64,000 bases of DNA from Burkholderiales bacterium. Its GTDB lineage: Bacteria > Pseudomonadota > Gammaproteobacteria > Burkholderiales > Burkholderiaceae_D. A program made the translations under genes and the position numbers. The stretch covers positions 1 through 64,000 of the forward strand of contig JACPWS010000078.1 of the NCBI GenBank assembly GCA_016196925.1, in the 5' to 3' direction. Within the stretch, counting starts at the first letter, position 1. Each line of letters begins with the position of its first letter. Shown one piece after another: positions 16,224 to 52,497 of the stretch. The notes under the pieces were generated by a model. That model did not search any database. It was not told where the DNA came from and worked only from the letters and a program-made list of their open reading frames with translations.

Positions 16224-16306
16224 TAATACTAGGGGGGAGTATTTTTAGCGACGCTTTAGATACGCTGACGACAGGCTGAAAAAGTCATATACCCCCCGTA
16301 ATAATT
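16224..16306 (-). repeat. Dispersed ~80-bp inverted-end repeat, copy A
   Basis: First of four related copies in this window. Read on the minus strand it runs GGGGGGTATATGAC, then TTTTTCAGCCTGTCGTCAGC, then AAAAATACTCCCCCC. The ends are inverted (GGGGNGTATA/TATACTCCCC). It fills the gap after ydfG. Confidence 0.7.
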
Positions 16307-16323
16307 AAAAAACCGTAGTTTAG

Positions 16324-16481
16324 CCCCCTCTCCCGCCCGCGGGAGAGGGTTGGGGTGAGGGCAGTTGGCGTGCTTCAGCAGTCAAAAATGTGAAGATAGT
16401 TTGCGATCTGGACATATTTAACTGCCGACGCTTGCGACCCGCCCTCACCCCCAGCCCCTCTCCCGCACGCGGGCGAGGGGA
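16324..16481. repeat. Inverted pair of ~40-bp CCCCTCTCCC repeats
   Basis: The left arm (16324-16362: CCCCCTCTCCCGCCCGCGGG, then GAGAGGGTTGGGGTGAGGGC) is inverted at 16441-16481, with about 80 bases between. Each arm is itself a hairpin. Such arms are widespread intergenic repeats in Proteobacteria. The second arm ends 30 bases before ybgC, so the operon promoter must lie inside or beyond it. Confidence 0.75.
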
Positions 16482-16511
16482 GCTTTCTGAGCGGGACGAA
16501 GATACATAACA

Positions 16512-16910
16512 ATGAGCAAACAATTCACCTGGACCATACGCGTCTATTACGAAGACACCGACGCCGGCGGCATCGTGTTTTACGCCAATTACCTGAAGTT
16601 TTTCGAACGCGCCCGCACCGAATGGCTGCGCGCGGCCGGCATCCACCAGCACAGCATGAAAGAGCAGCAGCAAGCCATGTTTGTCGTCAAAGCGACCGAG
16701 GTCGAGTATCATGCACCCGCCAAGCTCGACGATGAACTGAAACTCACGCTCGTGGTCGAAAAGCTGGGCCGCGCATCGGTGCAATTCCTGCAACAGGCCT
16801 GGTGCGGCGAACGCCTGCTGTGTAGCGGCCGCATCAAGGTCGGCTGCGTAGGCAGCGTCAGTCTGCGTCCGGAAGCGATCCCGGCCGAGGTGCTGGCAAA
16901 AATTTCCTAG
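16512..16910 (+). CDS. ybgC: Tol-Pal-associated acyl-CoA thioesterase YbgC
   Basis: A 132-residue hot-dog-fold thioesterase. The signature RVYYEDTDAGGIVFYANYLKF contains the catalytic Asp of the 4-hydroxybenzoyl-CoA thioesterase type, and FFERARTEWLR follows. YbgC hydrolyses short or acyl-ACP-linked thioesters and is regularly the first gene of the tol-pal operon. It lies 29 bases before tolQ. No strong ribosome binding site was seen. Confidence 0.95.
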   Translation: MSKQFTWTIRVYYEDTDAGGIVFYANYLKFFERARTEWLRAAGIHQHSMKEQQQAMFVVKATEVEYHAPAKLDDELKLTLVVEKLGRASVQFLQQAWCGERLLCSGRIKVGCVGSVSLRPEAIPAEVLAKIS

Positions 16911-16939
16911 TTTCCGTAGAAAAAACAAATCGATTCATT

Positions 16940-17635
16940 ATGACCGTCACCCAAGACCTTTCCTTTCTGAGCCTGATTAGCAACGCATCCTTTCTGGTGC
17001 AACTCGTGATGTTGCTGTTGCTGGGCGTGTCTCTGACCAGCTGGAATTATATTTTTAGCAAGATGTTTGCGATAAAAAAAGCGCGCAAGCAAACCGAAGA
17101 TTTCGAACGCAGTTTCTGGTCGGGTGGTAACCTGATCGAGCTATACCAGGCCGCCACCGGCAAGCGCCGCGCCGACAACGACCAGAGCGGCGCACTCGAA
17201 CGCATCTTCGAAGCCGGCATGAGCGAATACCACAAGGTCAAGAACGCCAACAAGGCGACGCTCGACGCCAGCGCCATGCTGGACGGCGCCCGCCGTGCGA
17301 TGCGCGCGGCTTACCAGCGTGAAATGGATACGCTGGAAGCGCATCTGTCCTTCCTGGCTTCGGTCGGTTCGGTTTCGCCTTACGTCGGTCTGTTCGGCAC
17401 CGTATGGGGCATCATGAATGCGTTTCGCGGCTTGGCGAATGTGCAGCAAGCCACGCTGGCAGCGGTCGCGCCCGGCATCGCCGAAGCGCTGATTGCGACC
17501 GCGATCGGCTTGTTCGCCGCGATCCCGGCGGTGCTGGCCTATAACCGCTATGCGCACGACATCGACCGCCTGGCGATACGCTTCGAAACCTTCATCGAGG
17601 AATTCTCGAATATCCTGCAGCGCCAGTCGCGCTGA
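16940..17635 (+). CDS. tolQ: Tol-Pal system proton-channel subunit TolQ
   Basis: A 231-residue MotA/TolQ/ExbB family protein with three TM segments, one near residues 15-38 and two after residue 130 (SPYVGLFGTVWGIMNAFRG, then ALIATAIGLFAAIPAVLAYN). These are the conserved pore-lining motifs. With TolR it forms the inner-membrane motor that energises TolA to move TolB and Pal at the division site. The gene follows ybgC and precedes tolR by 14 bases. Confidence 0.97.
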   Translation: MTVTQDLSFLSLISNASFLVQLVMLLLLGVSLTSWNYIFSKMFAIKKARKQTEDFERSFWSGGNLIELYQAATGKRRADNDQSGALERIFEAGMSEYHKVKNANKATLDASAMLDGARRAMRAAYQREMDTLEAHLSFLASVGSVSPYVGLFGTVWGIMNAFRGLANVQQATLAAVAPGIAEALIATAIGLFAAIPAVLAYNRYAHDIDRLAIRFETFIEEFSNILQRQSR

Positions 17636-17649
17636 GTCGGGGAGTGAGC

Positions 17650-18093
17650 ATGAGTTCTCTGCGTGGCGAACGTAAACGCAAATTCAAGGCCGAGATCAAC
17701 GTCGTGCCGTATATCGACGTGATGCTGGTGCTGTTGGTGATTTTCATGGTGGCGGCGCCGATGACCAATCCCAGCGTGATTAACTTGCCGACCGCCGGCC
17801 AGTCTACCCAGCCGCCGTCCGATTACATAGAAATCGCGCTGCGTCCCGACGCCAAAGCCAGCATCAGCCTGAACAGCAAGGCCGGCGCCAACGGCGTCAA
17901 CAAGCAGGAAAGCAAGGAAGAGGCGGCCGACCGCAAGCAGCTGATGCAAAAGTTGCGCGAATACCACGACGCCAGGCCCGAGCTGGCTGTGCTACTGTCG
18001 GCCGACAAAGAAATGCGCTACGACGACGTCATCCAGGTGATTTCCGAAGCTAAAAAAATCGGCATCAACCGCGTCGGTCTGGCCACCAAATAA
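17650..18093 (+). CDS. tolR: Tol-Pal system proton-channel subunit TolR
   Basis: A 147-residue ExbD/TolR protein: short cytoplasmic N-terminus, AEINVVPYIDVMLVLLVIFM with the essential TM aspartate, then a periplasmic domain ending in VISEAKKIGINRVGLATK. The ATG at 17650 is chosen over a GTG two codons upstream because GGGGAG is well spaced from it. A Gln/Glu/Lys-rich insert (NKQESKEEAADRKQ) around residues 80-95 lengthens the periplasmic part slightly. The stop is only 9 bases from tamA, where tolA would normally follow. Confidence 0.95.
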   Translation: MSSLRGERKRKFKAEINVVPYIDVMLVLLVIFMVAAPMTNPSVINLPTAGQSTQPPSDYIEIALRPDAKASISLNSKAGANGVNKQESKEEAADRKQLMQKLREYHDARPELAVLLSADKEMRYDDVIQVISEAKKIGINRVGLATK

Positions 18094-18102
18094 GCGCTGC
18101 AA

Positions 18103-19938
18103 ATGCGATTGCGCCTGCTGCCCTCGCTCCTGTGCTGCTTGTGCTGTTTGTGCGGCGGCCAGGCGCTGGCGCAAGCGGGCGCAGCAGCCGCTGCCGGGCA
18201 AGATGGCGTGCAGGATGGCGAGCAGGATGGCGAACAAGAAGCGCGCAGCATCAACGGCCGCTTCCGCCTGCAAGCGGCTAAGGCCGACTGGGCCGCCTTG
18301 CTGCAAAAGCACATACCCGAATTCGCCGCCAGTAGCGATGCCGGCACCGTGACCCCGGCCATGATACGCAAGCTGCGCCAGGATATCGGCAATATCCTGG
18401 CGACCGAAGGCTATTTTTCTCCTCTCATCACATTCAACTATTCCGATAGCGATCAGCCGGGCGCCAAGCTGATCGCGGTCGTGGTCGATGCCGGGCCGCG
18501 CACGGTCGTCGCCAGCGTCGCGCTGAACCTGAGCGGCGCGCTGGCGCAAGCGGCCGGTGGCGGCGATCAGAAAGCGCGGCAAAGGCGGGCCGCCTTGCAA
18601 GCCGACTGGGGTTTGCCGGTCGGCCAGGCGTTCCGCGAAGACGACTGGAACGACGCCAAAAACCGCCTCGGCGAAAGCTTGCGCGCCGACGTGTATGCCG
18701 CCGCCACACTCGCCGGCAGCCAGGCCGCCGTCACCGCCGACAGCCAGCGCGCCGACCTCAGCCTGGAAATCGACAGCGGCCCGCCGTTTGCGCTGGGCGA
18801 GATGCGCGTGACCGGCTTGCAGCGCTATCCGGCCTGGCTGCTGCAACGTTTTCAGCCGCCACAGGCGGGCGAACCGTATGCGCGGGCGCGCCTGCTCGAC
18901 TATCAGCGCAATTTGCAGAATTCGGCTTACTTCGCCAGCGTCGCGGTCGGCATCGACCCCGATCCCGCCAAGGCGGCTGCGGTGCCGCTGGAAGTCGCGC
19001 TGGTCGAGCGCCAGGCGCGCGATCTCGGCTTCGGCGCCGGCTACAGCACCAATACCGGCTGGCGCAGCGAAGTGACTTATCGCGACCGCAATATCGCCGG
19101 CCAGGCCTGGGATTTGCGCAGCGCCGTGCGCATAGAGCAGCGCCGCCAGCTCGCTTATGCCGACATCTACCTGCCGCCGCATGCCAATAATTATCTCGAT
19201 TCGATCGGCGTGCTGAGCGAGCGCTCGGATCTCGCCGGACTCAGGCAAAACCGTAATGCGCTAGGCATCAAACGCAGCAGCACGCGCGGCCATCTGGAAC
19301 AAAGGCTGGGCTTGAATCTGATGCGCGAAACCATCAGGCTGGAGGGCGAGGCGGCCAGCGTCAACCGCGCGCTGGTGGCCAGCATAGGCTGGAGCTGGCG
19401 CGAGGTCGACTCTGCCTTAGCTCCGCGCCGCGGGCAAATCGCCCAGCTCGATCTGGCGCTGTCTGACAAGCTCTTGTTTTCGGACCAGCGCTTCTTGCGC
19501 ACCTACGCCAAATACCAGCGCTGGCTGCCGGCCGGCAAACACGGTAACTTCATCTTGCGGGCGGAAGCCGGGCAAGTGCTGGCGCAAGACGGGCAAGGCA
19601 TACCGGAAGAATATCTGTTTCGCACCGGCGGCAGCACTACCGTGCGCGGTTACGGCTACCAAAGTCTCGGTATCCAGCATGCTTCCGGGGTGAGCGGCGG
19701 CCGCGTGCTGGGCGTGGCCAGCGCCGAATACGACCGCTGGCTGCAAGGCGATTGGGGTGCGGCCGCCTTTCTCGATTGCGGCGACGCCGCCGACAGCTGG
19801 CGCGCGCTCAGCCTGCGCCAGGGCATGGGCCTGGGCGCCCGTTACAAAACCCCGGCCGGCCCGATCGCGCTGGACCTCGCTTACGGCCGCCAGTCAAAAA
19901 AATTCCGCCTCGATTTTTCGATCGCGATCGCGTTCTGA
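18103..19938 (+). CDS. tamA: Translocation and assembly module outer-membrane protein TamA
   Basis: A 611-residue BamA/Omp85-family protein. It has a Leu/Cys-rich signal peptide (to about residue 23), a Gln/Asp/Gly-rich linker (QDGVQDGEQDGEQE), POTRA-like repeats to about residue 280, and a C-terminal 16-strand barrel with GGSTTVRGYGYQSLG, the conserved (V/I)RG(Y/F) lid-lock motif. TamA works with TamB to insert some outer-membrane proteins and to move phospholipid between membranes. It follows tolR by 9 bases and is followed at once by tamB, so all are probably co-transcribed. Confidence 0.93.
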   Translation: MRLRLLPSLLCCLCCLCGGQALAQAGAAAAAGQDGVQDGEQDGEQEARSINGRFRLQAAKADWAALLQKHIPEFAASSDAGTVTPAMIRKLRQDIGNILATEGYFSPLITFNYSDSDQPGAKLIAVVVDAGPRTVVASVALNLSGALAQAAGGGDQKARQRRAALQADWGLPVGQAFREDDWNDAKNRLGESLRADVYAAATLAGSQAAVTADSQRADLSLEIDSGPPFALGEMRVTGLQRYPAWLLQRFQPPQAGEPYARARLLDYQRNLQNSAYFASVAVGIDPDPAKAAAVPLEVALVERQARDLGFGAGYSTNTGWRSEVTYRDRNIAGQAWDLRSAVRIEQRRQLAYADIYLPPHANNYLDSIGVLSERSDLAGLRQNRNALGIKRSSTRGHLEQRLGLNLMRETIRLEGEAASVNRALVASIGWSWREVDSALAPRRGQIAQLDLALSDKLLFSDQRFLRTYAKYQRWLPAGKHGNFILRAEAGQVLAQDGQGIPEEYLFRTGGSTTVRGYGYQSLGIQHASGVSGGRVLGVASAEYDRWLQGDWGAAAFLDCGDAADSWRALSLRQGMGLGARYKTPAGPIALDLAYGRQSKKFRLDFSIAIAF

Positions 19939-19939
19939 C

Positions 19940-22900
19940 ATGAACCAGCCCGCCCCCCAACCTCAGCTCCAGCCTCAGGCCCGGCACGAACGCCTGCCGC
20001 CGGTCGCCGGCAAAACGCGGCCGGCGCGTCTGGCGCTGCGGGTCGCGCTGGCGCTGTCCAGCCTGGTGCTGGCGGGCGGCTTGCTGCTGGTCTGGCTGCT
20101 GGGCAGCGCCGCCGGCAGCCGCGCCCTGTTGCAAGGCCTGGCCGGCGCCAGCGGCGGCGCCTTCACTTGTTCGGGCATAGCCGGCACGCTCGGGCGCGAG
20201 TTAAGGCTGGACCAGTTCGCGCTGCGCGCGCCGGGCTTGCGCATAGACGGCAGCGGCGTGCACCTGCGCTGGCAGCCGGCCGCCTTGCTGCGCGGCCGCT
20301 TGCAAATCGATACGCTGGAAGCGAGTACGCTGCGCATCGCCAGTGCGCAAAGCGGCGCGGCGGCGCGCTTGCCGGCCGGGCTGGCGCTGCCGCTGACGAT
20401 AGAGTTGCCGCAACTGGCGCTGGGCCGTTTGCAGATCGCCGGCCTGGACGCCGATAACAAGCCGGCCGGGTGGCTGACGCTGAGCGCGATCAGCGCCAGC
20501 CTGCGCTATGCGCAACAGCGTTACCAGGGGCAGGCCGCGCTCGATTCGCTCTGGGGCCGTCTGCAGCTGGAAGCGCGGCTGGCCGATGCGCGCCCGTTTG
20601 TGCTGAACGGCAAGCTGAACTGGCAAGGACAGGCCTATCCCGCGCTGCCGCGCCTGAACTTGCAAGGCCAGCTGGACGGCTCGCTGGAAACCGTGCGACT
20701 GGCGCTGCAGGCGCCCGCCAGCCCCTTGCCAGCCGTGTCGGCCGTGCCAGCCTTGCAAGGCCAGGCCAGCGCTACCTTCACCCCGTTTGCCGCGCCGTTC
20801 TTGCGCAGCCTGCAAGCCGACTTGCTGCACGCTAATCCGGCCGCATGGCAGGCCGCGGCGCCGCAAGCCGATTTGCGCATCCGCGCGGCACTGGCGGCGA
20901 GCGCAACAGAGACCGGCATCCTGAGCGGCGAACTCGAGCTCGGCAACGCCCGCCCCGGCAGCCTCGACCATAACGCGCTGCCGCTGCTAGCCTTGAAAAC
21001 CCGGCTGAGCTGGGCGGCGGACCGCATAGACTTGTCGCGCCTGCAGCTGCAACTGCCAGGCCAGGGCGCGGTCAGCGGCCATGCGCTGTGGCAATGGGGC
21101 GCCGGCCCCAGAGGCGAGGCGCAACTGACGCTGGCTGGCGTCGACCTCAGGCAAATCGACAGTCGCCTGCACGCCAGCAAGATCAGGGGCAGCTTGCAAG
21201 CGCACAGTGCTGCGGCGCACGCCGTCGCGCTGCAAGCCCACCTCAGCGACGGCGTCGCCAGCCTGCAAGCCGAAGGCGTTTATCAAGCTGCGCCGGCCTT
21301 GCTGACATTCAGCAAGCTCGATCTGCGGGCGGACGATTCGCATCTGCAAGGGCAGGGCGACATCGCCTTCGGCGGCGCCCAGGCCTTTCATTTCAAGGGC
21401 AGCCTGCTGAATTTCGATCCGGCGCGCTGGCTGGCGGCGCCGGCCGGACGCCTGCAAGCGCAATTCAGCGGCCAGGGCCAATTGCAGCCGCGCCTGCAAT
21501 TGCAGGCGAGCCTGCCGCAACTGCAGGGCCACTATGCGGGACAAGCGCTGCAAGCGAAACTCGATCTGCGCTGGCTGGCCGGCCAGCAACTACAGTTGAA
21601 TCACTTCGACCTGCATTGGGGCAAGAATGCGCTGACGGCGCACGGCGCCTGGGGCGCGGACTACGATAGCCTGCAATTCAGCCTGGACGCGCCCGAGCTG
21701 AGCGCGTTCAACCCGCTGACCGCGCCGCTGCAATTGACGCTGGGCGGCAGCCTGCAAGCGCAAGCGCGCCTGCAAGGGCGTTTCAACGAACCGGCCGGCA
21801 CGCTCGCCACCGAAGCCAGGCAGCTGCAAATTGTTTACCGCCAACGCCGCATCAGCATCGCCGGCCTGAACGGAAAACTGGCGCTGGGCGGCGGCAGCCG
21901 CGGCCAATTCGAGGGCGAGATCAGCGCGCAACATGTAGGCGGCGATTGGCCCGGCCTGAGCTTCGCTTCCGGCGCCGCTGCGCCGGGCGAGTCCGATAAG
22001 CTGGCAGGGCTGAGCCTGCAACTGACGGGCCGGCGCGACGCCCACAGCCTGACGCTGGACGCCGCCTTCCCCGGCCGACAAAAGCTGAATCTGCAAGCGA
22101 GCGGCGGCTTGCAATCCGCAACAAAAAACAGCGCCTGGAGCTGGAACGGACTATTGCAAGCCTTCACGCTGAGCGGCAAGCCGGACTTGCGGCTGCAAAG
22201 CGCGGCCACGCTGCAAGTGTCGCCGCAGACGATGCGCCTGGGCGGCCTGCAACTGCACAGCGAGCTCGGTTCGCTGGCGCTGGCCAGTCTGGAATGGACG
22301 CCGGAGTCGCTCAGCAGCGCGGGCAGCATCAGCGCGGCGCGCGTGCTGGCCATCGCCGGCTTGCTCAAGCCGCAATACGCGCTGGACGGCAATTTGCAAG
22401 TCGATGGGCAATGGCAATTGCAATTCAAAGACAATGTGCGCGGTGAAATCCACCTGCAACGCCGTAGCGGCGACTTGCGCATCGTCGACACCGACGGCGC
22501 CGGCATCCCGGTCGCGCTCGGCATGCGCGCGCTGGAGGTCGATGTGCAACTGGGCGGACTGATCGCCGGCAGCGCGCATGAGCGCCTGGCGCTGCAACTG
22601 AAGGCGGACGGCAGCCGGCTGGGGCAATGGCAATTGCAGGCGAACTCGGCGCTCAGCCGGCTCGACGGCCAGTGGCGAGTGGCGCCCGATGCCGCGCTGG
22701 ACGGCAGTCTCAACGCCGCCATCCCCGACTTGCAATGGCTGGGGCCATCGATCAATCCGGGGCTGGTGCTGAAGGGCAAATTGAATGTCGACGCCAGGCT
22801 GGCCGGCAGCATAGCCCAGCCGCATTACCTGGCGAACCTGAGCGGGCGCGAACTGGAGCTGGCGTTCGCTTCCGAGGGTTTGCTGCTGCCGAACGGCAGC

Positions 22901-24088: not shown

Positions 24089-24111
24089 GGGGGCGACTAT
24101 ATGCTGCGGTC

Positions 24112-24615
24112 GTAGGGCGGATCAGGCGCAGCCGTCATCCGCCGTATGCATTGGCGGCCTTGCATGGTGATTTACCGTGTCGTCAATAAACACCTGCGTC
24201 AGGTTTTTTGGATCGCCGGCCGGGGGTAGCCCGGCGGCTACTAACCTTTTTTGCTTCGCCAAAAAAGGTGAGCCAAAAAAGGCGACCGCAGACTTGCCCT
24301 TCGGGTGCTTACGCTACGCTTCAGCACAATTTGTGCGTCACAAAAAATGGGAAATGAACGAAACTCGGTGACGGAACAATCGCTTGCAAGCGATTGCCGT
24401 TCCGCAGGCGAGGTGCATGCACCTCGAAACCCCTGCTCCACCTCAGACAGCGGACACTTCTTTTTCCATTTTCTGTGAAGCACAAATTGCTGCGTCCCCA
24501 GCGGATGAAGGTCAAAGGCAACGTCAAAAACAACGATACGCAGCCGCTTCTCAGATAAATTTTGTCGCCAATTACGCCGTAAGTAGGGCGGATCAGGCGC
24601 AGCCGTCATCCGCCG
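24112..24615. repeat. ~500-bp non-coding element bounded by 33-bp direct repeats
   Basis: A 33-bp sequence containing GGCGGAT...ATCCGCC occurs identically at 24112-24144 and 24583-24615. The interior has no credible gene. It holds the 16-bp palindrome GAGGTGCATGCACCTC-like core near 24411, a palindrome around CGCTTGCAAGCG near 24384, and long imperfect inverted arms (about 24325-24355 with 24455-24495, sharing CACAAATT and CACAAAAAATGG-like sequence). The right copy supplies the stop codon of the SDR gene on the minus strand. Confidence 0.7.
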
Positions 24616-25460: not shown

Positions 25461-25488
25461 AATGATTCCTATGGAAATGTTCAATTGT

Positions 25489-27355: not shown

Positions 27356-27430
27356 CAGGGAGTATATGGTTTTTTCAAGCTGTCGACCGTATAAACAAAG
27401 GCGATATAAATATACTCCCCTCCAGTAATA
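27356..27430 (+). repeat. Dispersed ~80-bp inverted-end repeat, copy B
   Basis: Starts CAGGGAGTATATGG, carries TTTTTTCAAGCTGTCGACCG in the middle and ends ATATACTCCCC. It is homologous to the copies at 16224, 34591 and 52417, but the most diverged in its core. Confidence 0.65.
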
Positions 27431-27454
27431 TTTTCGTCGCATCCCGTGTTTAAG

Positions 27455-30461: not shown

Positions 30462-30520
30462 TCCCTATGGCGTCGCACTGACGCTTTCTGCACTTGGAAA
30501 GCACGGACTTATTCCGATTC

Positions 30521-30593
30521 CGTCATCCCCGCGAAAGCGGGGATCCACCTCAGTGTTTGATTTACATGGATTCCCGCTTTCGCGGGAATGACG
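30521..30593. repeat. Inverted pair of 27-bp GTCATTCCCGCG-type repeats
   Basis: CGTCATCCCCGCGAAAGCGG and following bases at 30521-30547 are inverted at 30567-30593 with a few mismatches. They form a hairpin between pal and cpoB. It belongs to the same broad repeat class as 43556-43703. It could act as an attenuator within the operon. Confidence 0.75.
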
Positions 30594-30676
30594 TCTTTTG
30601 ATTTAATCTGCGTTTCCCTGGTTATCGGATCGCTTGCGCAGTCCGGTTTTCCGATTTCTTTCCTACTCTGAGCGCC

Positions 30677-31506: not shown

Positions 31507-31582
31507 GGGTCGTTAGCTCAGCTGGTAGAGCAGCGGACTTTTAATCCGTTGGTCGCAGGTTCGAATCCCGCACGGCCTACCA
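31507..31582 (+). tRNA. tRNA-Lys (TTT), copy 1
   Basis: A 76-nt cloverleaf. The acceptor arms GGGTCGT and ACGGCCT pair with two G-U wobbles. The D-arm is AGCTCAGCTGGTAGAGC and the anticodon TTT is at 31540-31542 in the loop CTTTTAA. The T-arm has GGTTCGAATCC, and a CCA end is encoded. It sits directly behind a consensus promoter. Confidence 0.98.
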
Positions 31583-31646: not shown

Positions 31647-31722
31647 GGGTCGTTAGCTCAGCTGGTAGAGCAGCGGACTTTTAATCCGTTGGTCGCAGGT
31701 TCGAATCCCGCACGGCCTACCA
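31647..31722 (+). tRNA. tRNA-Lys (TTT), copy 2
   Basis: Identical in sequence to the first copy across all 76 nt, including the encoded CCA. The 64-base spacer has no convincing promoter, so expression may depend on readthrough of the intervening terminator or on processing of a joint transcript. Confidence 0.98.
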
Positions 31723-34590: not shown

Positions 34591-34680
34591 CAATATACTC
34601 CCCCCTGATTTTCATTTTTTCAGCCTGTCGTCCGCGTATTTAAAGGCCTTGAAAATATACTAAGGGGGGGTATTTTTTTG
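34591..34680 (+). repeat. Dispersed ~80-bp inverted-end repeat, copy C
   Basis: Begins AATATACTCCCCCC, has TTTTTTCAGCCTGTCGTCCG in the centre and ends AATATACTAAGGGGGGG-TATTTTTTT. It shares the core and right end with copy A. Its left end is inverted relative to the others (TATACTCCCCCC instead of GGGAGTATA). Confidence 0.7.
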
Positions 34681-42249: not shown

Positions 42250-42304
42250 TGTAGCCTGCTGCATGAACGCCAACAAACCCCATTTAGCCGTGACCGGCGC
42301 CGCC

Positions 42305-43546: not shown

Positions 43547-43555
43547 GGTATTGCC

Positions 43556-43703
43556 GTCATTCCTGCGCAGGCAGGAATCCAGCGGCGTTCGTAAAACACG
43601 AGTAAAGCATCGTTGCGTTCCGAACGTTGATTGAAATGCCGGCGAAGAGTTACAAAGCGGTATGCAAGGGAAGTCACTGGATTCCTGCCTGCGCAGGAAT
43701 GAC
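43556..43703. repeat. Inverted pair of 27-bp GTCATTCCTGCG-type repeats
   Basis: GTCATTCCTGCGCAGGCAGG plus AATCCAG at 43556-43582 is exactly inverted at 43677-43703, with about 94 bases between. It lies inside the ABC operon between the adaptor and ATPase genes and could form a long stem-loop that uncouples them. Same broad repeat class as 30521-30593. Confidence 0.8.
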
Positions 43704-43761
43704 AAAAGCTAGGGAATAATAAATTGTACAGTTGAACGCGCTAACACCAACAAGGAAAATC

Positions 43762-44442
43762 ATGATCAAACTAAACAAACTCAGCAAGATCCATCTGGCC
43801 GGCGAAGTCCAGACCACGGCCCTGAACCAGATCGACCTGGAAATCGACGCCGGCGAATATGTCGCCATTACCGGGCCTTCCGGCTGCGGCAAATCGACCC
43901 TGCTCAGCATGCTCGGTTTGCTGGATAGTCCCAGTTCCGGCGACTACTGGTTCGAAGGCCAGAACATCGCCGGCTGGAGCGAGAGCCAGCTGAACCAGCT
44001 GCGCCGCGGCCGCATCGGTTTTATTTTCCAGAGCTTCAATCTGATAGAAGAGTTGAGCGTGTTTGAAAACGTCGAACTGGCGCTGGAATATACCGACGTG
44101 CCGGTCAGGGAGCGCAAACAAAAAGTCAACGCCTTGCTGGAAAAACTCGGCGTCGCCCATCGCAGCAAACACCGCCCTTCGCAATTGTCCGGCGGGCAGC
44201 AGCAGCGGGTCGCCATCGCGCGCGCGCTGGTGGCCGGCCCCGCCATCCTGTTGGCCGATGAACCGACCGGCAACCTGGACACCGCACACGGCGACGAAGT
44301 CATGCGCATCCTGCGCAGCATCAATGCCGAAGGCACCACCGTGGTGATGGTCACCCATTCGCCTTCGCATGCGGCGCAAGCCTCGCGCACCCTGCATCTG
44401 CTGGACGGCAAGATCATGGTCGATGCTTTGCAGGCGGCTTGA
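43762..44442 (+). CDS. ABC transporter ATP-binding protein (MacB/LolD type)
   Basis: A 226-residue ATPase with Walker A GPSGCGKST, Q-loop FIFQSFNLIEELSV, signature LSGGQQQRVAIARAL, Walker B ILLADEPTGNLD and switch His in VTHSPSHA. The 'DEPTGNLD' and FNLI motifs place it in the MacB/LolD/FtsE branch that works with FtsX-like permeases by mechanotransmission. ATG at 43762 has AAGGAAAA upstream. It precedes the two permease genes. Confidence 0.95.
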   Translation: MIKLNKLSKIHLAGEVQTTALNQIDLEIDAGEYVAITGPSGCGKSTLLSMLGLLDSPSSGDYWFEGQNIAGWSESQLNQLRRGRIGFIFQSFNLIEELSVFENVELALEYTDVPVRERKQKVNALLEKLGVAHRSKHRPSQLSGGQQQRVAIARALVAGPAILLADEPTGNLDTAHGDEVMRILRSINAEGTTVVMVTHSPSHAAQASRTLHLLDGKIMVDALQAA

Positions 44443-44470
44443 ACACCTAAGCGAACGCACACTCAGACAC

Positions 44471-46903
44471 ATGAAACTACGCGACTTTAAAATCGGCTGG
44501 CGCATGCTGCTCCAGGAACCGGCTTACTCGGCGGTGGCGATACTCGGCCTCAGCATAGGCTTTGCCGCTTGCATCCTGCTGCTGGGCTTCGTGCGTTATT
44601 CGCTGAGCTACGACGGCACGGTGCCCGACATCAGGCAGGTGTATCTGGTGAAGCAGCGCTACAACGTTGATCCGGTGGCGCCGTGGTTCGAGCAGGCGCC
44701 GTATGTATTGCGCGCAGCCGGTCTGAAGACGCCCGGGGTCGCCAGCGTCAGCGGCTACGCGCCGCGCGAGCCGTTTCCGGTGCGGGTCGGCGCGCGTATG
44801 CTGAAGTTGCACCGCGTGCCGGTGTTGCCCGGTTTTGCGCAAATGCTGGGTTTGCAAGCCGTCGAGGGCGATCTGCAGGCGGCTTTGGAGCGGCCGGAAA
44901 ATTTCGCCATCACCGAACAGGCGGCGCTGCGTCTGTTCGGCAGCGCGCATGCCCTCGGTCGCAGCCTTACGGTCGATGGCAAGCTGCTGAAGGTGGCGGC
45001 GATTCTGCGCAATCCGCCCGCGAATAGCACCATGCCTTTCGAGGCCCTGATGGGCGTCAATTCGGTATTGCTATCGGAGGACACGCGCAAGGACATGCTG
45101 AACGGCAGCGGCTACGCTTGGGGTAAATTGCTGATCCGTGTGCAGCCGGGCGCTTCCTTGTCCGCCATCACGCAGGCCTTGCAGCAGGCGCTGGATCGTT
45201 CGCCGGCGCCACCGTATGTCACGCCGGAGATCAGGCAGCGCCTCGGTCAACGCAAGCTGATGGACATCAAACTCTCGCCCCTGCAGGATGCTTACTTCGA
45301 CCGGGAAATCGCCGACAATCCTATCGCCCGGCCGGGCGAGCGCGGCGATGCGGCCATGGTCGGCGGGCTGGGCGCGATCGCCGTTCTGATACTGGCGCTG
45401 GCGGCGATGAATTACGTGAACCTGAGCACGGTACGCGTGTTGCGGCGCCAGCGCGAGATCGCCATGCGCAAGGTGCTGGGCGCGGGAGTCGGCCGTATCG
45501 TGCTGCAGTTCTTGGCCGAATCGCTGCTGGTGGCGCTGCTGGCGACCGGCCTCGGCTTGCTGCTGGCATGGCTGGCGCTGCCGCTGTTTTCCGATCTGAT
45601 GAACCGCCGGCTCGATAGCCTATTTTCTCTGGTCAATCTGGCCGCCGCACTACTGATCGGTATCGCGCTCGGCCTGCTGTGTGCCGCGTATCCGGCCTGG
45701 ATTGCGATCCACGTGCGCCCCGGTCAGGTGCTGGCCGGACGCCCCGATAGCGAAACCCTGCGTGGCCGGCGCTTGCGCCGCAGCATGACGGTGTTGCAAG
45801 TGGCGGCCGCCATGGGCCTGGCCAGCATCACGCTCGCCATCGCGTGGCAGACCAGTTTTGCCATGCATGCCTCGCCCGGCTTCGATCCGGCGCCGCTGCT
45901 GATCGTCGATTTGCCGGAGCAGGTGAAGAATAGCGAGAAAGCGCGCGCTCTGATTGCGGCCTTGCTCAGTCAGCGCAAGGTCGCCGGCGTCGCGGTCGCG
46001 GCCGATGCGGTCGGACGCTACAAAAGTCCATGGGGACTGGACGTCAAGCGCGAGGGCGGTGCCAGCGTGTTTGTGGAGATGGCATCGGTCAGCGCGAATT
46101 TCTTTGAGCTGTATGGCATAAAAGCGCTGGCGGGGCGCTTGTTCGATGCGCGTATCGATCAGGAAGACGATGCGCTGCCTATCGTCCTGAATGGCGTCGC
46201 CGTGCGCAAGCTGGGTTACGCCAGCCCGGAAGCGGCGCTAGGGCAGACTTTGCTGTATACCGATTTCGAAGGCAAGACCCGGAACAAGCGCATCGTCGGC
46301 ATCGCGCCCGAGCTGCGTTTCCATACGCTGCATGAGGCGCCGCGCGCCACCGCCTGGGAACTCTGGACCCAGGGCGGCACGCTCTCCGTGCGCGCCACAG
46401 CGCCACTGGCCGAAGTCGAACGCACGCTGCTGGCTCTTTGGCCCAGCTATTTTCCGGATGCGCTGCCGGAAATCCATCGCGCCGCGGATATTCTGGCCGC
46501 CAACTACGAGGAAGACGCGCGGATCGCGCAGCTGCTGGCGATCGCCACCGGCATCGCGCTGGCGCTGGCGGCCTTCGGTACCTATGTGCTGTCGGCCTAC
46601 AGCGTGCAAAAGCGTGCCAGGGAAATCGTGCTGCGCAAACTGTATGGCGCGAATCGCTCTGCGATTGCGCGTTTGCTGGGCATGGAATTCGGCGGCCTGC
46701 TAGGTCTCGCCGCCTTACTCGCCTTGCCCTTGGCGGCCTGGGCCATCGAGCGTTATCTGGCCGGCTTCGTGGGACGCGCGCCTGTCGGTGCCTGGACTCT
46801 GCTGGCAGCCTTGGTCCTGGCCGGCAGCGTGGCCGCGCTGGCGACGCTGCGCCACATCCTGGCCGCGCTGCGCATCGCTCCGGCGCAAGCTTTGCGCAAT
46901 TAA
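44471..46903 (+). CDS. FtsX-like ABC permease, first of a tandem pair
   Basis: An 810-residue membrane protein. It has TM1 (YSAVAILGLSIGFAACILLLGF), a large MacB-type periplasmic domain (to about residue 285), three TMs around 290-430 with a KVLGAGVGRIVLQFLAESLL FtsX motif, a TM near 480, then a second periplasmic domain and a second TM triplet (from about 700) with the matching KLYGANRSAIARLLGMEF. This duplicated, eight-TM form is usual for larger MacB_PCD/FtsX permeases. The start is set by the conserved MKLRDFKIGWR that also begins the next gene. It shares clear sequence similarity with that gene along its length. Confidence 0.93.
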   Translation: MKLRDFKIGWRMLLQEPAYSAVAILGLSIGFAACILLLGFVRYSLSYDGTVPDIRQVYLVKQRYNVDPVAPWFEQAPYVLRAAGLKTPGVASVSGYAPREPFPVRVGARMLKLHRVPVLPGFAQMLGLQAVEGDLQAALERPENFAITEQAALRLFGSAHALGRSLTVDGKLLKVAAILRNPPANSTMPFEALMGVNSVLLSEDTRKDMLNGSGYAWGKLLIRVQPGASLSAITQALQQALDRSPAPPYVTPEIRQRLGQRKLMDIKLSPLQDAYFDREIADNPIARPGERGDAAMVGGLGAIAVLILALAAMNYVNLSTVRVLRRQREIAMRKVLGAGVGRIVLQFLAESLLVALLATGLGLLLAWLALPLFSDLMNRRLDSLFSLVNLAAALLIGIALGLLCAAYPAWIAIHVRPGQVLAGRPDSETLRGRRLRRSMTVLQVAAAMGLASITLAIAWQTSFAMHASPGFDPAPLLIVDLPEQVKNSEKARALIAALLSQRKVAGVAVAADAVGRYKSPWGLDVKREGGASVFVEMASVSANFFELYGIKALAGRLFDARIDQEDDALPIVLNGVAVRKLGYASPEAALGQTLLYTDFEGKTRNKRIVGIAPELRFHTLHEAPRATAWELWTQGGTLSVRATAPLAEVERTLLALWPSYFPDALPEIHRAADILAANYEEDARIAQLLAIATGIALALAAFGTYVLSAYSVQKRAREIVLRKLYGANRSAIARLLGMEFGGLLGLAALLALPLAAWAIERYLAGFVGRAPVGAWTLLAALVLAGSVAALATLRHILAALRIAPAQALRN

Positions 46904-46929
46904 TTTCTACTTGAAACCACTATACGAAT

Positions 46930-49338
46930 ATGAAACTACGCGACTTTAAAATCGGTTGGCGCTTGCTGATCCAGGAACCGGCTTACTCGGCGGTGGTGGT
47001 GTTGGGTCTCTGCGTGGGCTTTGCCGCCTGCATACTATTGTTGGGTTTTGTACGTTTTTCGCTGAGCTACGATGCTTCCGTGCCTGACCTAGAGCGGGTG
47101 GTTGTCGTCAAGCAGAAGTTCAATGTGGTGGGGCGACCGGAATGGATGCAGATCGTGCCATTGCCGTTCCGCGACCTGGCTCTGCAGAGCGGCATGGTAG
47201 AGGCGGCATCGGGCTTCCTGCATCGCAACAGCATGCTGAAAACCGGCGCACGCAGCAGCCAGATAGAAATAACTGCGGTGGATGTCAGCTTTCCGCAAAT
47301 GTGGGGGATACAGGCTTTGCAAGGCGATTTGGCGGCCGCCTTGAGCCGGCCCGATGCCCTGGCCTTGACCGTGGATGCCGCCGAAAAGGTCTTCGGCCAC
47401 ACGCAGGTGGTCGGCCAGACTGTGCAAATCGACGGCAAGTCTTACCTGGTCGCGGCCTTGCTGCCTGATCCGCCCGGCAACACCACGGCGCCTTATGCGG
47501 CCCTGACCGGGGTGAACACCGCGCTGTGGCCGCCGGAGGAACGCGAAGAAATCGTGCAAGGTCTCAACTGGGTCGGCGGAGTGCTGTTGAAACTGAAACC
47601 TGGCGTCACGGCTACCGCGCTGACACAGGCCTTGCAAGCCAAGGCGGATAGCCTGCCGCTGCGCACGAGCCTGCCGCCGGAAGCCTTGCAGCGTATCGGC
47701 GATAAGCGCTGGATGGAAGTCGGTCTGGTTTCCTTAGCGGATGCGTATTTCGATGCAGACCTGAGCAATAGCCACGGCAGCGGCGAGCGCGGCAATAAGC
47801 GCATGGTGCTGGGCTTGGGCGCGGTGGCGCTGCTGATCCTGCTACTGGCCAGCGCCAACTACATCAATCTGGCCACGGTGCGTAGCCTGCGCCGTCAGCG
47901 CGAGATCGCCATGCGTCAGGTGCTGGGCGCCGGAAAATACCGCATCGTCGGCCAATTCATGGCGGAATCCGCACTGGCGGCGCTGCTGGCATGCGCGCTG
48001 GGGCTGGTGTTGGCCTGGCTGGCCTTGCCGCTGTTCTCCGAACTGATGGGACGCAAGCTAGCTGCGCTGCTGTCGCCCGCCAGCATCGCAGTCAGCCTGT
48101 TGCTCGCTTGCGGCATAGGCTTGCTGGCCGGGATCTACCCAGCCTGGCAGGCGCTGGGCACGAGCACTGCGGCTGCCCTCAGCGGCCGCGAAAATAGCGA
48201 AGGCCGCAGCGGTCTGTGGCTGCGGCGCGCGATGACGGTGCTGCAATTCGCCACCGCTATCTGCCTGGCAGCCGTGACGCTGACCATAGTCTGGCAGACT
48301 TACTTCGCCAGCCGTATTGATCCTGGCTTCGATCCCCGGCCTTTGCTGGTGCTGGATGTGCCGGGTGACCCGAATAGTGCCGCCGCGCAGTCCTTTCGCG
48401 CAGCATTGCGCCGGCTGCCCGGCGTCTCGGGCGTGGCGGGCGCAGACGACGCGGTGGGGCGCAGGAGTAACTTTTTCTACGGCGACGTCAAGCGCGCCGG
48501 CGGTGAATTCATCAATGCACGCAGAAAATCGGTGGATGCCGATTTTTTTCAGGTGTATGGCATAGCGGCCAATGCCGGGCGCCTGTTCGATGCCAGCCTG
48601 GATCAGACGGACAAATCCGAGTTGATCGTGATTAACCTGGCATTGGCGCGCAAGCTGGGCTATGCCACGCCGCAGGCGGCGGTGGGCCAGGCGCTGACCG
48701 GCAACGAAAACGAAGCCTTGCGCGTCATCGGTGTGGCGCCGGATATCCGTTACCAGAGTCTGCGTCAGTCTGCGGAACCTATGCTGTATCGCCTGAACCG
48801 CAGCCGGGCCGGCATCCTCACGCTGCGCAGCACCGGCGATATGGCGGCGGTGCGCAGTGCAGCGGAAGCGCTCGCCAAAAAACACTTCAGCGTAGCGCTG
48901 CCGCAGATGCACGGCGCCCAGGAATTTCTGGCTACAAATTATGCCGATGATCTGCGTCTGGCCAAACTGCTGGCCGGCGCCAGCCTGGTGGCCGTCGCGC
49001 TGGCCGCTTTCGGCATCTACGTGCTGTCGGCTTACAACGTGCGGCGGCGCGAGCGCGAGATCGTGCTGCGCAAACTGTATGGCGCAAACAGACCGGCGAT
49101 TGCACGTCTGCTGGGCCTGGAGTTCCTCAGCGTGCTGGGAGTCGCCGCGCTGCTCGGCTTGCCGCCGGCAGCGGTGGCGACCGAGCATTATCTGGCCGGC
49201 TTCGTTGAGCGCGCGGCGATAGGCGCCTGGACCCTGATCGCCGCCATGCTGCTGGCCTGCAGCGTGGTCTTGCTGGCCACCGTGCGCCATACGCGGGAGG
49301 CGCTGCGCCTGCGGCCGGCGCTGGCTCTGAGAAGTTAG
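46930..49338 (+). CDS. FtsX-like ABC permease, second of a tandem pair
   Basis: An 802-residue paralogue of the preceding permease with the same eight-TM, two-periplasmic-domain layout. It begins MKLRDFKIGWRLLIQEPAYS, nearly identical to its partner, and has QVLGAGKYRIVGQFMAESAL and KLYGANRPAIARLLGLEF at the same places. The two may form a heterodimer around the single ATPase (inference). The stop codon TAG at 49336-49338 overlaps the end of a 160-bp inverted-repeat element, so the last codons may have been altered by that insertion. Confidence 0.93.
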   Translation: MKLRDFKIGWRLLIQEPAYSAVVVLGLCVGFAACILLLGFVRFSLSYDASVPDLERVVVVKQKFNVVGRPEWMQIVPLPFRDLALQSGMVEAASGFLHRNSMLKTGARSSQIEITAVDVSFPQMWGIQALQGDLAAALSRPDALALTVDAAEKVFGHTQVVGQTVQIDGKSYLVAALLPDPPGNTTAPYAALTGVNTALWPPEEREEIVQGLNWVGGVLLKLKPGVTATALTQALQAKADSLPLRTSLPPEALQRIGDKRWMEVGLVSLADAYFDADLSNSHGSGERGNKRMVLGLGAVALLILLLASANYINLATVRSLRRQREIAMRQVLGAGKYRIVGQFMAESALAALLACALGLVLAWLALPLFSELMGRKLAALLSPASIAVSLLLACGIGLLAGIYPAWQALGTSTAAALSGRENSEGRSGLWLRRAMTVLQFATAICLAAVTLTIVWQTYFASRIDPGFDPRPLLVLDVPGDPNSAAAQSFRAALRRLPGVSGVAGADDAVGRRSNFFYGDVKRAGGEFINARRKSVDADFFQVYGIAANAGRLFDASLDQTDKSELIVINLALARKLGYATPQAAVGQALTGNENEALRVIGVAPDIRYQSLRQSAEPMLYRLNRSRAGILTLRSTGDMAAVRSAAEALAKKHFSVALPQMHGAQEFLATNYADDLRLAKLLAGASLVAVALAAFGIYVLSAYNVRRREREIVLRKLYGANRPAIARLLGLEFLSVLGVAALLGLPPAAVATEHYLAGFVERAAIGAWTLIAAMLLACSVVLLATVRHTREALRLRPALALRS

Positions 49339-49496
49339 TGGTCTGCTTGGCAAATGATCGAACCGATAAAGCTTGTCTTCGAGCCCCTGGCGGCGTTGCT
49401 CATCCTCGCAATAGCTCGCTATTGCTGCGGTTCGCGCCTTGCCAGGAACTCGAATCCCGCGCTTTCTCGTATCCGCTATTTACGAAGCAGACCACT
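49337..49496. repeat. 160-bp element with 12-bp perfect inverted ends
   Basis: AGTGGTCTGCTT (49337-49348) is inverted exactly as AAGCAGACCACT (49485-49496). The inside contains a hairpin GCAATAG-ctcg-CTATTGC. The left end shares the last two bases of the permease stop codon. A GTAGGGTGCGC..GCGCACC-type repeat follows directly at about 49502-49555. Confidence 0.75.
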
Positions 49497-50073
49497 AGCG
49501 GGTAGGGTGCGCCGTGCGCACCACGCGTCATCGACCACTCGGTGCGCATGGCGCGCCGGCGGCTTGTATGCGAACCGCTTTACGCTGAATAACTGGTATC
49601 TGATCGGCCCGTTCGAAGGGCGCAGCGCACAGAGTCTGCAAACCGTATATCCGCCGGAAATGCTGGTCGATCTGGATGCCGTGTATTTCGGCAAGGAGCA
49701 GCGGGTCTTGAAGTGGGAATATCTGCACGATACCAGCTATCCGCTGGTGCCGCCGCTACGTGACCAGAATGCCGTGTATTACGGTTATGCTGAAGTCTAT
49801 ATGGAGCAGGAGCGCGACTTGTGGGTGGCGATAGGCGGCGATGACGACAGCAAGCTGTGGTTCAATCAAAAGCTGATCTGGACCAGCGGTAACGAAGACA
49901 AACCCTGGTACCACACCCATGTGCGCAATCTGCACAGCAGCATCGCCCAGCTAAACCTGACGGAAGGCCAACGCAAGCTGCATTTCAACAAGGGCCGCAA
50001 CACGTTTTTGTTCAAGTTGTATAACGGCATCGACGTGATGTTTTTTTCGCTGGCCTTGTTTGCCGGTGCTTGA
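49354..50073 (+). CDS. Truncated C-terminal fragment of an unrecognised beta-rich protein
   Basis: The open frame is 239 codons, but only about residues 74-239 (from 49573) look like real protein: NNWYLIGPFEG, YGYAEVYMEQERDLWVAIGG, DDDSKLWFNQKLIWTSG and LHFNKGRNTFLFKLYNGIDV. These recall a PA14-like or lectin-like ligand-binding sandwich, as at the C-terminus of larger extracellular proteins. The first 70 codons come from the 160-bp inverted element and a GTAGGGTGCGC repeat. There is no proper start or ribosome binding site. I read this as the tail of a gene, once the fifth of the ABC operon, that lost its front part. The function is unknown. Confidence 0.55.
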   Translation: MIEPIKLVFEPLAALLILAIARYCCGSRLARNSNPALSRIRYLRSRPLAGRVRRAHHASSTTRCAWRAGGLYANRFTLNNWYLIGPFEGRSAQSLQTVYPPEMLVDLDAVYFGKEQRVLKWEYLHDTSYPLVPPLRDQNAVYYGYAEVYMEQERDLWVAIGGDDDSKLWFNQKLIWTSGNEDKPWYHTHVRNLHSSIAQLNLTEGQRKLHFNKGRNTFLFKLYNGIDVMFFSLALFAGA

Positions 50074-50249
50074 TGGCGGCGGGGTTGTGCTTACGAAAAA
50101 CACGAAAGGCAAAATCCAATTTGACACGGCTTACACGGCGGAACGGCTTAGGCTTGAATCAGGCTTTCGCTGCGTGCGCCGTGTTCGTTGTGTTCGGACA
50201 GGTTCAAGTTTTTTCGTGCTTTTGATGTTTTTCGTGGACAAAAAAGATT

Positions 50250-52358
50250 TTAAAAATCAAACTGCGCCGATAGCTTGTAAGTGCGCGATGCGCCGGGGAA
50301 CAGGTAGCCGCCCAGCGATTGCGTGACATCGCGCCAGTAGAACTTGTCCAGCGCATTGTCGACGTTGAAGCGCAACGTGGTCGCCGTGCCGCCCAGGCTG
50401 GTGGCGTAGCGCGCACCGAGGTTCAGCACAGCGTAGCCGGGTACCGTCACGCTATTGTCGGGGCTGAAAGCCTTGCTGCCTGCATATTGCCAGCTGCCGT
50501 TCAGGTGCAGGCCGCGCACTTGCGCCAGCGCGTAATCCAGATAGATGGTCGATTTCAAGTCGGGTACATTGGTGACGCGCTTGTCATCCAGCGCGGCCAG
50601 GCCGGTGTTGTGCTGGCGCGCGTGCAGCGCCGTCAGGCTGGCGCCCATACTCAGTTGCGAGCTCAGCTTGCCGTGCGCCGCCAGTTCCAGACCGGTATGG
50701 ACGGCGTCGCCGTTGCTGACATAGCTATTGTTGCTGTCGGTGTATTCCAGCGGCTTCTCGATGCGGAAGGCGGCGGCCGAGATGCTCAGCTCGCGGCTCA
50801 GCTCGGCTTTCACGCCGACTTCGATCTGGCGCGACTTAGCCGGATCGAGTACCTGGTTTTGGTTGGCAGTGCCGAAAGGCGCGCTGCCGCCGTGTTCCAC
50901 TCCCTGGCTGTAGGCGCCGTACAGCGACCAGTTTTGCAGCGGTTTGAGCACCAGCGCCAGGCTGGGCAAGAGATAGCTGTGTGTATAGCCGGGGCCGTCA
51001 AACCGGCTGCGCTGTATCTGCAACTGGCGCAAGCCCAGATGTAGTTTCAGGCGGTCGCTGAGGGCGACGATGTCTTGCGCGAAGGCCGCACTTTCCTTGT
51101 CGCTGCGCCGCCATATCGCCGCTCCGGTGTTGTTGGCCGAGTGGCCGGTCAGGCGCGGGTGGAACAGATTGCTGCTGCCGACCAGCTCGTACACATAGTC
51201 GCCGTAATAATCGCGCCGTTCGGCGCTGCTGAGGCCGGCGGCGAATTCATGGCGCAGGCCGGCGGCGCTAAAACTTCCGTTCAGCAAGGCTTGCAGGCCG
51301 CGCAGCGATTTCGCTTCGCCCGCGCTCTGGTAATCGTAGACGTCGTAATCGCCATTCGCGCAATAGCCGGGATACAGGGCGCCGCAACCGGCTGGGAAGG
51401 CGGTGTAATCGTCGCGCCTGAATTCATGCCGGTTGGCGGACAGCGTCGCGCGCCAGGCGGCGCTCAGCTGGTATGCGAAGCGCAGGCCGAGATTGCCGTT
51501 GCGCGTATCCACCGGCCTGGCCCAGGGCTGGTCGTTCAGCATCAGGTCGGCGCCGACGCCGCGCGGCAAATCGCTGCCATTCGTCAGCTGGAAGCCGGGC
51601 GCCGACAGTTGCGACTTGTGCTGATAATCGAGATCGAGCTGCAGCAGCGCTTGCGGCGTCAGCTGCCAGTCGAACGCGCCGGAAACGAACTGGCGCTCGC
51701 CGTCCGCGCCCTTGATGTAAGAGCGCAGACGCTCGCCGGCGACATTGATGCGGTAGCCGAATTGCCGGTCGCCCGTCATCCCGCCCAGATCGGCTGCGCC
51801 GTACAGGGTGCCGCGTTCGCTCAGTTCGACCACGGCGGAACGCAAGGGCGCGGCGGTCGGGCGCTTGCTGACGTAGTTGACGATGCCGCCCGGCGCGGCG
51901 AAGCCGGCCTGGAAGCCGGCCACGCCTTTCAGGATTTCTATGCGCTCCTTGTTTTCCAGCGGGATGGAGGCGTCGCCGGGAATCGCGAAGCCATCCTTGC
52001 GGTAGCCGGAGGCGTTATCGAGCGCGAAACCGCGTATCGAAAATTGTTCGGCATAGCCGACCGCGTTATACGCCTCGTTGACGCTGGCGTCGAATTTCAT
52101 GGCGTCGCTGCTTTGACGCAGGCGCAGATCCTGGATCATGGCCTGGCTCAGGACATGCACCGAGAACGGCGTGTCCAGCAGCGGCGCCGCGATATAGCCG
52201 CCGGCCCTGGTGCTTTGCAACTGGCCGTCGGACGTGCGGTAACCGGTCACGATCACTTCCGGCAGCGCGCCGTCGGCGCTTTGCGCCAGCGCCGGCGAGG
52301 CGCAGGCCAGTGCGATGGAAGAAGCCAGGATGGAATATGAATAATTAGGGTGGAGCAT
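50250..52358 (-). CDS. TonB-dependent siderophore receptor
   Basis: A 702-residue outer-membrane receptor. It has a signal peptide ending ASPALAQ, a TonB box-like LPEVIVTGYR, and a plug domain with PFSVHVLSQAMIQD, YAEQFSIRGFALDN and RIEILKGVAGFQAGFAAPGGIVNYVSKRP. A 22-strand barrel ends in SRTYKLSAQFDF. The plug motifs are those of the ferric-siderophore (FpvA/FhuE-like) group; the ligand is unknown. No adjacent siderophore ABC, FecR or biosynthesis genes were found, and I saw no clear Fur box upstream. Confidence 0.93.
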   Translation of the reverse strand: MLHPNYSYSILASSIALACASPALAQSADGALPEVIVTGYRTSDGQLQSTRAGGYIAAPLLDTPFSVHVLSQAMIQDLRLRQSSDAMKFDASVNEAYNAVGYAEQFSIRGFALDNASGYRKDGFAIPGDASIPLENKERIEILKGVAGFQAGFAAPGGIVNYVSKRPTAAPLRSAVVELSERGTLYGAADLGGMTGDRQFGYRINVAGERLRSYIKGADGERQFVSGAFDWQLTPQALLQLDLDYQHKSQLSAPGFQLTNGSDLPRGVGADLMLNDQPWARPVDTRNGNLGLRFAYQLSAAWRATLSANRHEFRRDDYTAFPAGCGALYPGYCANGDYDVYDYQSAGEAKSLRGLQALLNGSFSAAGLRHEFAAGLSSAERRDYYGDYVYELVGSSNLFHPRLTGHSANNTGAAIWRRSDKESAAFAQDIVALSDRLKLHLGLRQLQIQRSRFDGPGYTHSYLLPSLALVLKPLQNWSLYGAYSQGVEHGGSAPFGTANQNQVLDPAKSRQIEVGVKAELSRELSISAAAFRIEKPLEYTDSNNSYVSNGDAVHTGLELAAHGKLSSQLSMGASLTALHARQHNTGLAALDDKRVTNVPDLKSTIYLDYALAQVRGLHLNGSWQYAGSKAFSPDNSVTVPGYAVLNLGARYATSLGGTATTLRFNVDNALDKFYWRDVTQSLGGYLFPGASRTYKLSAQFDF

Positions 52359-52416
52359 GATTGATAGTGAGGATGAGTGCTTGGAAGCGGTTCGCGCGGG
52401 GGGTGTTTTCAGTCTG

Positions 52417-52497
52417 AATATACTAGGGGGTAGTATATTTTAAAGTCGTTTGAATTCGCTGACGACAGCTGATAATTTACCTATACTCCCTGTTTTT
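52417..52497 (-). repeat. Dispersed ~80-bp inverted-end repeat, copy D
   Basis: On the minus strand it runs CAGGGAGTATAGG, ATCAGCTGTCGTCAGCG, then AATATACTACCCCCTAGTATA. Its start overlaps the 3' end of rarD: the Gln-Gly-Val-stop codons (CAGGGAGTATAG) are repeat sequence, so the insertion set the end of that protein. Confidence 0.7.

Follow-up and report, generated by a model that had tools for sequence, protein, structure and literature searches.

Short sites repeated along a chromosome are known in several bacterial systems. In enterobacteria, BIME-1 elements (RIB/RIP) have a central site for a protein, flanked by two outer boxes in inverted orientation, and lie in gaps after genes, while in MatP/matS and Noc/NBS one protein is associated with many dispersed chromosomal sites. 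To our knowledge, proteins of the CsoR family act only as local sensors of metals, formaldehyde or sulfur species. A study of their operators gives that of RcnR as TACT-G6-N-AGTA (type 1), mentions tandem sites for RcnR, and describes CsoR-family tetramers that read the shape of the G-tract between TAC/GTA repeats and wrap the site (PMC3902906). The Undibacterium element described here has something of each. Like BIME-1, it displays outer boxes and a central site and is dispersed in gaps after genes; unlike BIME-1, it is linked to a protein of the CsoR fold, CL2, at one and the same site its core can differ from species to species, and no REP consensus was noticed in it. Like the sites of MatP and Noc, its copies are proposed to serve one protein at many places, but each is a three-part site of ~70-95 bp and the protein fold differs. 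Its inverted TACT/AGTA around a G-tract, and the presence of a box at the CL2 gene itself, recall the operators of RcnR, CsoR and FrmR (PMC3902906). In contrast to those operators, the dispersed copies mostly do not lie at promoters, the CL2 gene being the exception; in each, a second box stands at a set distance of 63 or 73 bp, with a third site in the centre, and the protein linked to them lacks the usual metal-site His.

The window, by which we mean the whole stretch of 64,000 nucleotides that was analysed, belongs to a 3.54-Mb, 94% complete Undibacterium genome (G000), the nearest 16 TolB relatives being Undibacterium records. The original prediction had placed four copies there, two per strand, and all four are present as described. 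Copy A (16226..16297, plus strand) has box 1 at 16226-16242 (ATACTAGGGGGGAGTAT), a core at ~16251-16274 and box 2 at 16289-16297 (ATACCCCCC). In copy B (27358..27428, minus strand), box 1 occupies 27412-27428 (TTACTGGAGGGGAGTAT on the minus strand), the core ~27380-27403 and box 2 27358-27365. Copy C (34595..34673, minus strand; box 1 34657-34673, core ~34625-34648, box 2 34595-34605) is a variant, of type II, with GGGGGGAGTAT as its right box, where the half-site stands on the far side of the tract, a correction to the earlier description; it lies downstream of a gene that we take to be ppx, where the isolates L096 and L099 also have a same-strand copy. Copy D (52420..52490, plus strand) has box 1 at 52420-52436 (ATACTAGGGGGTAGTAT), a core at ~52445-52468 and box 2 at 52483-52490. 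This last box overlaps, as had been noticed, the final codons of the gene first named rarD in the original prediction (52481..53359, minus strand; stop at 52481-52483), and on the other side of the copy is a gene, presumably ppk (50250..52358, minus strand).

The box pattern TATACTNGGGGGNAGTATA, with up to 3 mismatches, has exactly four matches in the window and none in 100 shuffles. The shared core that had been proposed, CTGACGACAGSCTGA (up to 3 mismatches), is enriched, with 9 matches against 2.46 expected and none of 100 shuffles as high, but only 3 of the 9 fall inside copies, and the end motif alone, ATATACTCCCC (2 mismatches), is weak, with 11 matches in the window for 5.18 expected. 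The copies align over ~85 bp, that is, beyond their ends. As for the inverted ends, the left one has to be redescribed as a full pseudo-palindrome, ATACT-N7-AGTAT, and not as a plain inverted end; the TACT/AGTA inverted repeat around the G/C tract is exact in copies A and D and has one mismatch in B and C. At gathering score, the Rfam families in the window were two tRNAs and a ZTP riboswitch only, with none at the copies.

Read in the orientation of copy A, the element begins with box 1 (ATACT, 6-7 mostly G/C bases, AGTAT), continues with an interior that holds a lineage-specific core, and ends with box 2, which combines a G/C tract with a single half-site of this kind and is either of type I (ATACTCCC) or of type II (GGGGAGTAT). 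Among the scan hits of G000 (three IS fusions set aside, and two hits being opposite-strand readings), the distance from one tract centre to the other is 62.5-63.5 bp for all 11 hits of type II and for 40 of 41 of type I, the remaining one having 73.5 bp. A larger set, of 141 unique type I interiors, was delimited by an exact ATACT-N5..8-AGTAT and a downstream ATACTCC over a scan of 0-88 bp, at loci found with R1, a sequence-only model built from 29 copies, or with patterns allowing 32-60 bp. It comprises 86 interiors of 46-48 bp, 49 of 56-57 bp and 6 of other lengths, about 16 of the 141 being CL2 operators (9 with 57 bp, 2 with 56 bp, and all but one of the 6 with other lengths). A single turn of the helix separates the two box spacings. 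The core of the 57-bp class, a palindrome or dyad, sits exactly midway between the boxes (31 copies; 45 interiors), and the half-sites of the core vary by species, by reading GCGCA in G016, GTCCA in G015 and GCCCT in G033. In 451 kb of G000, every core match scoring above 17 was near a box (14/14), as were 19 of the 33 scoring above 12; the strongest candidates for a free-standing core all being near boxes, they gave no pointer to a second factor in that sequence, and no core-binding protein was found.

The high abundance that had been foreseen is borne out. R1 has at least 150 matches in G000 at E<=4e-4, some being the two strands of one copy, and BLAST with copy A returns 42. In 451 kb of that genome (387 kb plus the window), 27 hits, a few of them the two strands of a single copy, correspond to ~24 distinct copies or one per 19 kb, and an even spread at this rate would give ~190 copies in the whole genome. 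In G015, R1 has 125 matches (E up to 0.5). Such numbers in two genomes are unlike those of CsoR/RcnR operators, and the spread of the G015 matches over the whole chromosome is unlike MatP/matS and Noc/NBS. Along the single large contig of G015, nothing strong in the pattern of strands was seen by eye among the matches listed; a KOPS-like polar site was set aside on this ground, and, judged by eye, a replication-linked function has no support. Multi-copy sets occur in 15 of 43 Undibacterium genomes, with the proviso that pattern counts are lower bounds and that R1 counts favour copies like those of G000. The lack of an Rfam match in the window and these sets across the genus agree with the view that the family is undescribed, and among the open-licence PMC papers that our searches listed, none describes this element, judging by title or the opening of the abstract.

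The paired boxes bring to mind a structured RNA or a bidirectional terminator, in which the copies would be transcribed and the outer boxes and core would form a hairpin. The location after stop codons would suit this, and pairing between the two outer boxes is open to many copies of type I and to almost every one of type II, the less common type, where 20 of 23 have a C-rich left tract that could pair. With ATACTCC as the right box, however, the left tract is C-rich in 22 and mixed in 42 of 139 unique sites, that is, 64 sites that share the same right box. In several copies of the 57-bp class, long and nearly perfect inverted repeats surround the core, arm pairing over the copies is somewhat above permutation, and single-strand folds of four copies have z between -2.8 and -3.4 in the + orientation (two complements: -2.0 and -1.2). 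Yet RNAalifold applied to 29 copies finds 4 pairs at -0.04 kcal/mol, which is no usable consensus fold, and the arms contain similar numbers of G-T and A-C mismatch cells (82 versus 71), with no clear strand preference. With copies present in divergent gaps too, and with no Rfam family at those of the window, an RNA nature appears very unlikely.

We placed 52 of the 60 scan hits of G000, dropping 8 that were type II with spacing above 60 (a rule that removes the IS fusions) or opposite-strand duplicates; with a few weak hits staying among the 52, 3 are at contig edges, 2 inside predicted genes and 47 in gaps. The gap copies divide into 28 tandem, 10 convergent and 9 divergent, the sample's gaps that are 85 bp or longer being 126 tandem, 23 convergent and 40 divergent. 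By hand measurement, the tandem-gap copies (n = 28) have medians of ~34 bp past the upstream stop and ~162 bp ahead of the next start. This bears on the idea of a very large regulon, where CL2 would repress transcription globally, with the elements as its operators at genuine promoters. Box 1 is operator-like, an element-shaped site stands at the start of the CL2 gene and 9 of the 47 gap copies are between divergent genes, all in keeping with a regulon; the tandem copies, placed just behind one gene and far ahead of the next, and the 10 convergent ones do not conform, and we regard it as quite unlikely. With their location after genes and on both strands, the copies would fit an insulator or nucleoid role better than promoter control.

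The copies also keep their positions between two species. A comparison of 200 kb in G033 and G027, whose aligned blocks are 91.4% identical, found all the elements (10 of 10) common to both and syntenic, which suggests that they have not been recently mobile. Within the 10 orthologous gaps, the elements are identical at 698 of 741 positions (94%) with 0 gap columns, against 1349 of 1718 (79%) with 96 gap columns for the rest of the gaps (p 1e-24, columns taken as independent). Between rarD and ppk, in a comparison leaving out G014 and G016, same-orientation copies with different cores are clear in G000, G018, G013, G029, G027, G033 and G022, the interior being one turn longer in G018; the copy is degenerate in G020 and perhaps in G006, and none was seen there in the element-rich G011, G015, G025 and G035. 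A second gap (g10-g11) has the same pattern in L088, L089, L090 and L092, and no element in L100 (U. terreum). These two gaps indicate that an element can keep its place and its boxes through a change of core, sites also being gained or lost over longer times. Sites that are filled in one species and empty in another are too diverged for target duplications to be read.

These comparisons weigh on a further possibility, a REP/BIME-like or MITE-like repeat that transposition once scattered and that has since become mostly fixed; its boxes would be signals for a transposase or for a structure, and the CsoR-like protein would be incidental. Such a repeat would account for the many dispersed copies, their likeness inside a lineage and their place in gaps close to where genes end, as well as for sites that are filled in one species but not in another. 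Mobile DNA does use the element: an IS30-type sequence (a family that we presume from its C-terminal sequence) took the core as target: 8 contig ends carry half-copies broken at an identical position, one matching right half was found, and a ninth IS end (contig C45) is outside the core, ~30 bp from an intact copy. It is harder to reconcile a repeat of this kind with 10 of 10 copies being common to two species and better conserved than the flanking sequence, with the same place and orientation but a different core in several species, with boxes spaced in helical steps, or with the ties to CL2, whose gene start is element-shaped, and we deem it unlikely. The three natures put forward in the original prediction, hairpin, terminator and miniature transposable element, thus find weak support at best: pairing is not required in type I, the copies hold their positions between two species, and they occupy divergent gaps as well.

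A candidate protein came from the boxes. Because box 1 resembles the RcnR operator, we searched PF02583 in 42 Undibacterium genomes and found two main classes, canonical and CL2, with a third kind in G018 and G021. CL2 is a stand-alone protein of the CsoR/RcnR fold, 104 aa long; that of G000 passes PF02583 with 58.7 bits for a cut-off of 22.8, and no other PF02583 match was found in this 94% complete genome. It aligns with FrmR-like proteins, keeping Cys50 and RLxR (8 aligned), while the FrmR-type metal-site His is replaced by Ala or Ser in 8 of 8 aligned; we assume here that these Cys and His are ligands of the sensor site. CL2 scores far below the cut-offs for RicR, FrmR and RcnR, and a reading of 7 loci showed no efflux gene beside it. 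In most loci read, ATACT-N6/7-AGTAT lies upstream of its gene. The canonical FrmR-like PF02583 proteins were rejected as partner: G000, G006, G014, G016, G020, G022 and G025 show CL2 as their sole PF02583 match, and the motif upstream of canonical genes differs, being, by reading, of the GTATACCCCCCTATAC kind.

The start of the CL2 gene itself is shaped like an element. In all 15 Undibacterium genomes rich in elements, taken as those where the pattern matches 4 times or more, box 1 (allowing 2 mismatches) is followed after 56-57 bp by ATACT or ATACC in codons 3-5, G014 and G020 having been read by hand; the interval is 57 bp in 13 genomes and 56 bp in 2, and the second half-site is ATACT in 13 and ATACC in 2. 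Nine CL2 genes were examined from Undibacterium genomes where no multi-copy elements accompany them. In 8 of these the intervals are 28, 42, 42, 44, 54, 54, 66 and 100 bp, never 56-57 (G004 and G064 by hand, their CL2 codons not reading ATACT), and G021 has the box with no clear second site; G003 and G066 were left out of the comparison. The 8 genes with other intervals are mostly from one clade. In most genomes the CL2 operator is without the long G-tract of the elements (ATACTCAGTAGAGTAT). As judged from sequence, this links CL2 to the geometry of the elements, shared ancestry explaining part of the agreement.

CL2, defined as E<=1e-14 to the G000 protein, is found in 125 of 392 genomes sampled in the family. 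Every genome positive for the element pattern has CL2 (26/26) and none of those lacking CL2 is positive (0/267), the control pattern having one match (G197) in that scan; the lone matches that G034, G026, G063 and G031 have correspond to the operator of CL2 itself. Among CL2-bearing Undibacterium, 5 of 26 have no pattern match and 6 more a single one, although G003, with CL2 and no pattern match, has 8 R1 matches. Most CL2-bearing genomes of other genera have no pattern match. With so many CL2 genomes devoid of pattern matches, CL2 does not suffice. The skeleton GGAGTAT-N46..58-ATACTCC is present in 41 of 392 genomes, 35 with CL2 and 6 without (G244, G283, G299, G339, G367 and G387, one match each), and all 15 genomes with at least 5 matches have CL2; its control matches in 3 of 392 (G004, G020, G365), one per strand each. 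The skeleton is multi-copy in genus g37 (13, 13, 11, 6) and in one of three genomes of g65 (7, 1, 0). On a ppk tree of 30 genomes (those with loci, out of 38 with a ppk match), CL2 requires 3 changes and elements 6, and 9 of 9 CL2-less rows are without elements. The co-distribution is phylogenetically correlated, with 2-3 independent pairs at most and a sign test that is not significant. In a clade that keeps CL2 (G004, G019, G026, G031, G034, G065), elements were lost or never spread.

On balance, we find it rather probable that the elements are docking sites for CL2 and a second, putative factor, with a chromosome-organising or insulating role. They would be composite sites lying between genes, approximately one per 20 kb; helical-turn spacing and the link to a CsoR-fold protein both point to double-stranded DNA bound by protein. 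CL2 would bind the two outer boxes and the putative second factor the central dyad, the half-site specificity of the latter drifting between lineages. Three sites in helical register may produce a wrapped or bent symmetric complex, and two boxes of the kind that CsoR-family tetramers wrap, set in register around the dyad, would give a compact and stable knot. Since it lacks the metal-site His, CL2 probably stays on its sites for most of the time and may repress its own gene through the element-shaped operator. Fixed nucleoprotein knots past gene ends would organise the nucleoid, block transcription running through, or both. A bolder version is put forward tentatively, at somewhat less than an even chance: a CsoR-fold repressor without its metal site turned chromosome organiser, forming symmetric and helically phased complexes with a fast-evolving partner at 100 or more intergenic sites laid out like its own operator, the specificity of that partner shifting between species at all sites together. 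If this were true, a nucleoid-organising or insulating system built from the CsoR family would be a new job for that family. It would also be a natural experiment in which more than 100 binding sites change specificity jointly, many of them staying in place. Named isolates, U. griseum L096 and U. oligocarboniphilum L099, carry elements in their records, which makes the proposal testable.

The core of the dispersed element has been hit, at one fixed point, by a multi-copy IS30-type element (family assigned by its C-terminal sequence), as seen in eight half-copies (contig ends of G000, the Undibacterium genome of the window; loci L238-L246). At these contig ends, a GGGGGAGTAT motif is located in the IS30-type element's own end, 77.5-78.5 bp from box 1. 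In some copies of the 57-bp class, where 56-57 bp separate box 1 from the right box, the core is flanked by long near-perfect inverted repeats (loci L407, L410, L417 and L432), with arms that are specific to each copy. Box 2 is also met outside of the repeats: in Undibacterium genes for CL2, the stand-alone 104-aa CsoR/RcnR-fold protein proposed to bind both outer boxes, codons 3-6 (Asp-Thr-Pro-Pro) often spell GATACTCCCCC, and the coding region therefore contains a box 2 sequence.

Several genomes with no copy in the rarD-ppk gap have there, downstream of rarD, a sequence that we take to be TPP riboswitch-like. The ppk match in one of the genomes compared (G014:C1:861802-863172) is partial, with an in-frame TGA.

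In the window, Rfam searches place a ZMP/ZTP riboswitch at 9666-9797 on the reverse strand (RF01750, 49.4 bits) and two tandem tRNA genes at 31507-31579 and 31647-31719 on the forward strand, contained in 83-nt repeat units that are 98% alike. Further palindromic repeats, with arms of the GTCATNCC type, occupy 30496-30618 and 43556-43703, the 27-nt arms at 43556 and 43677 being 100% complementary. Large ORFs of 844 and 802 aa lie side by side at 44369-49338; their common DNA stretches, 71-79% alike, suggest that they are probably a duplicated gene.
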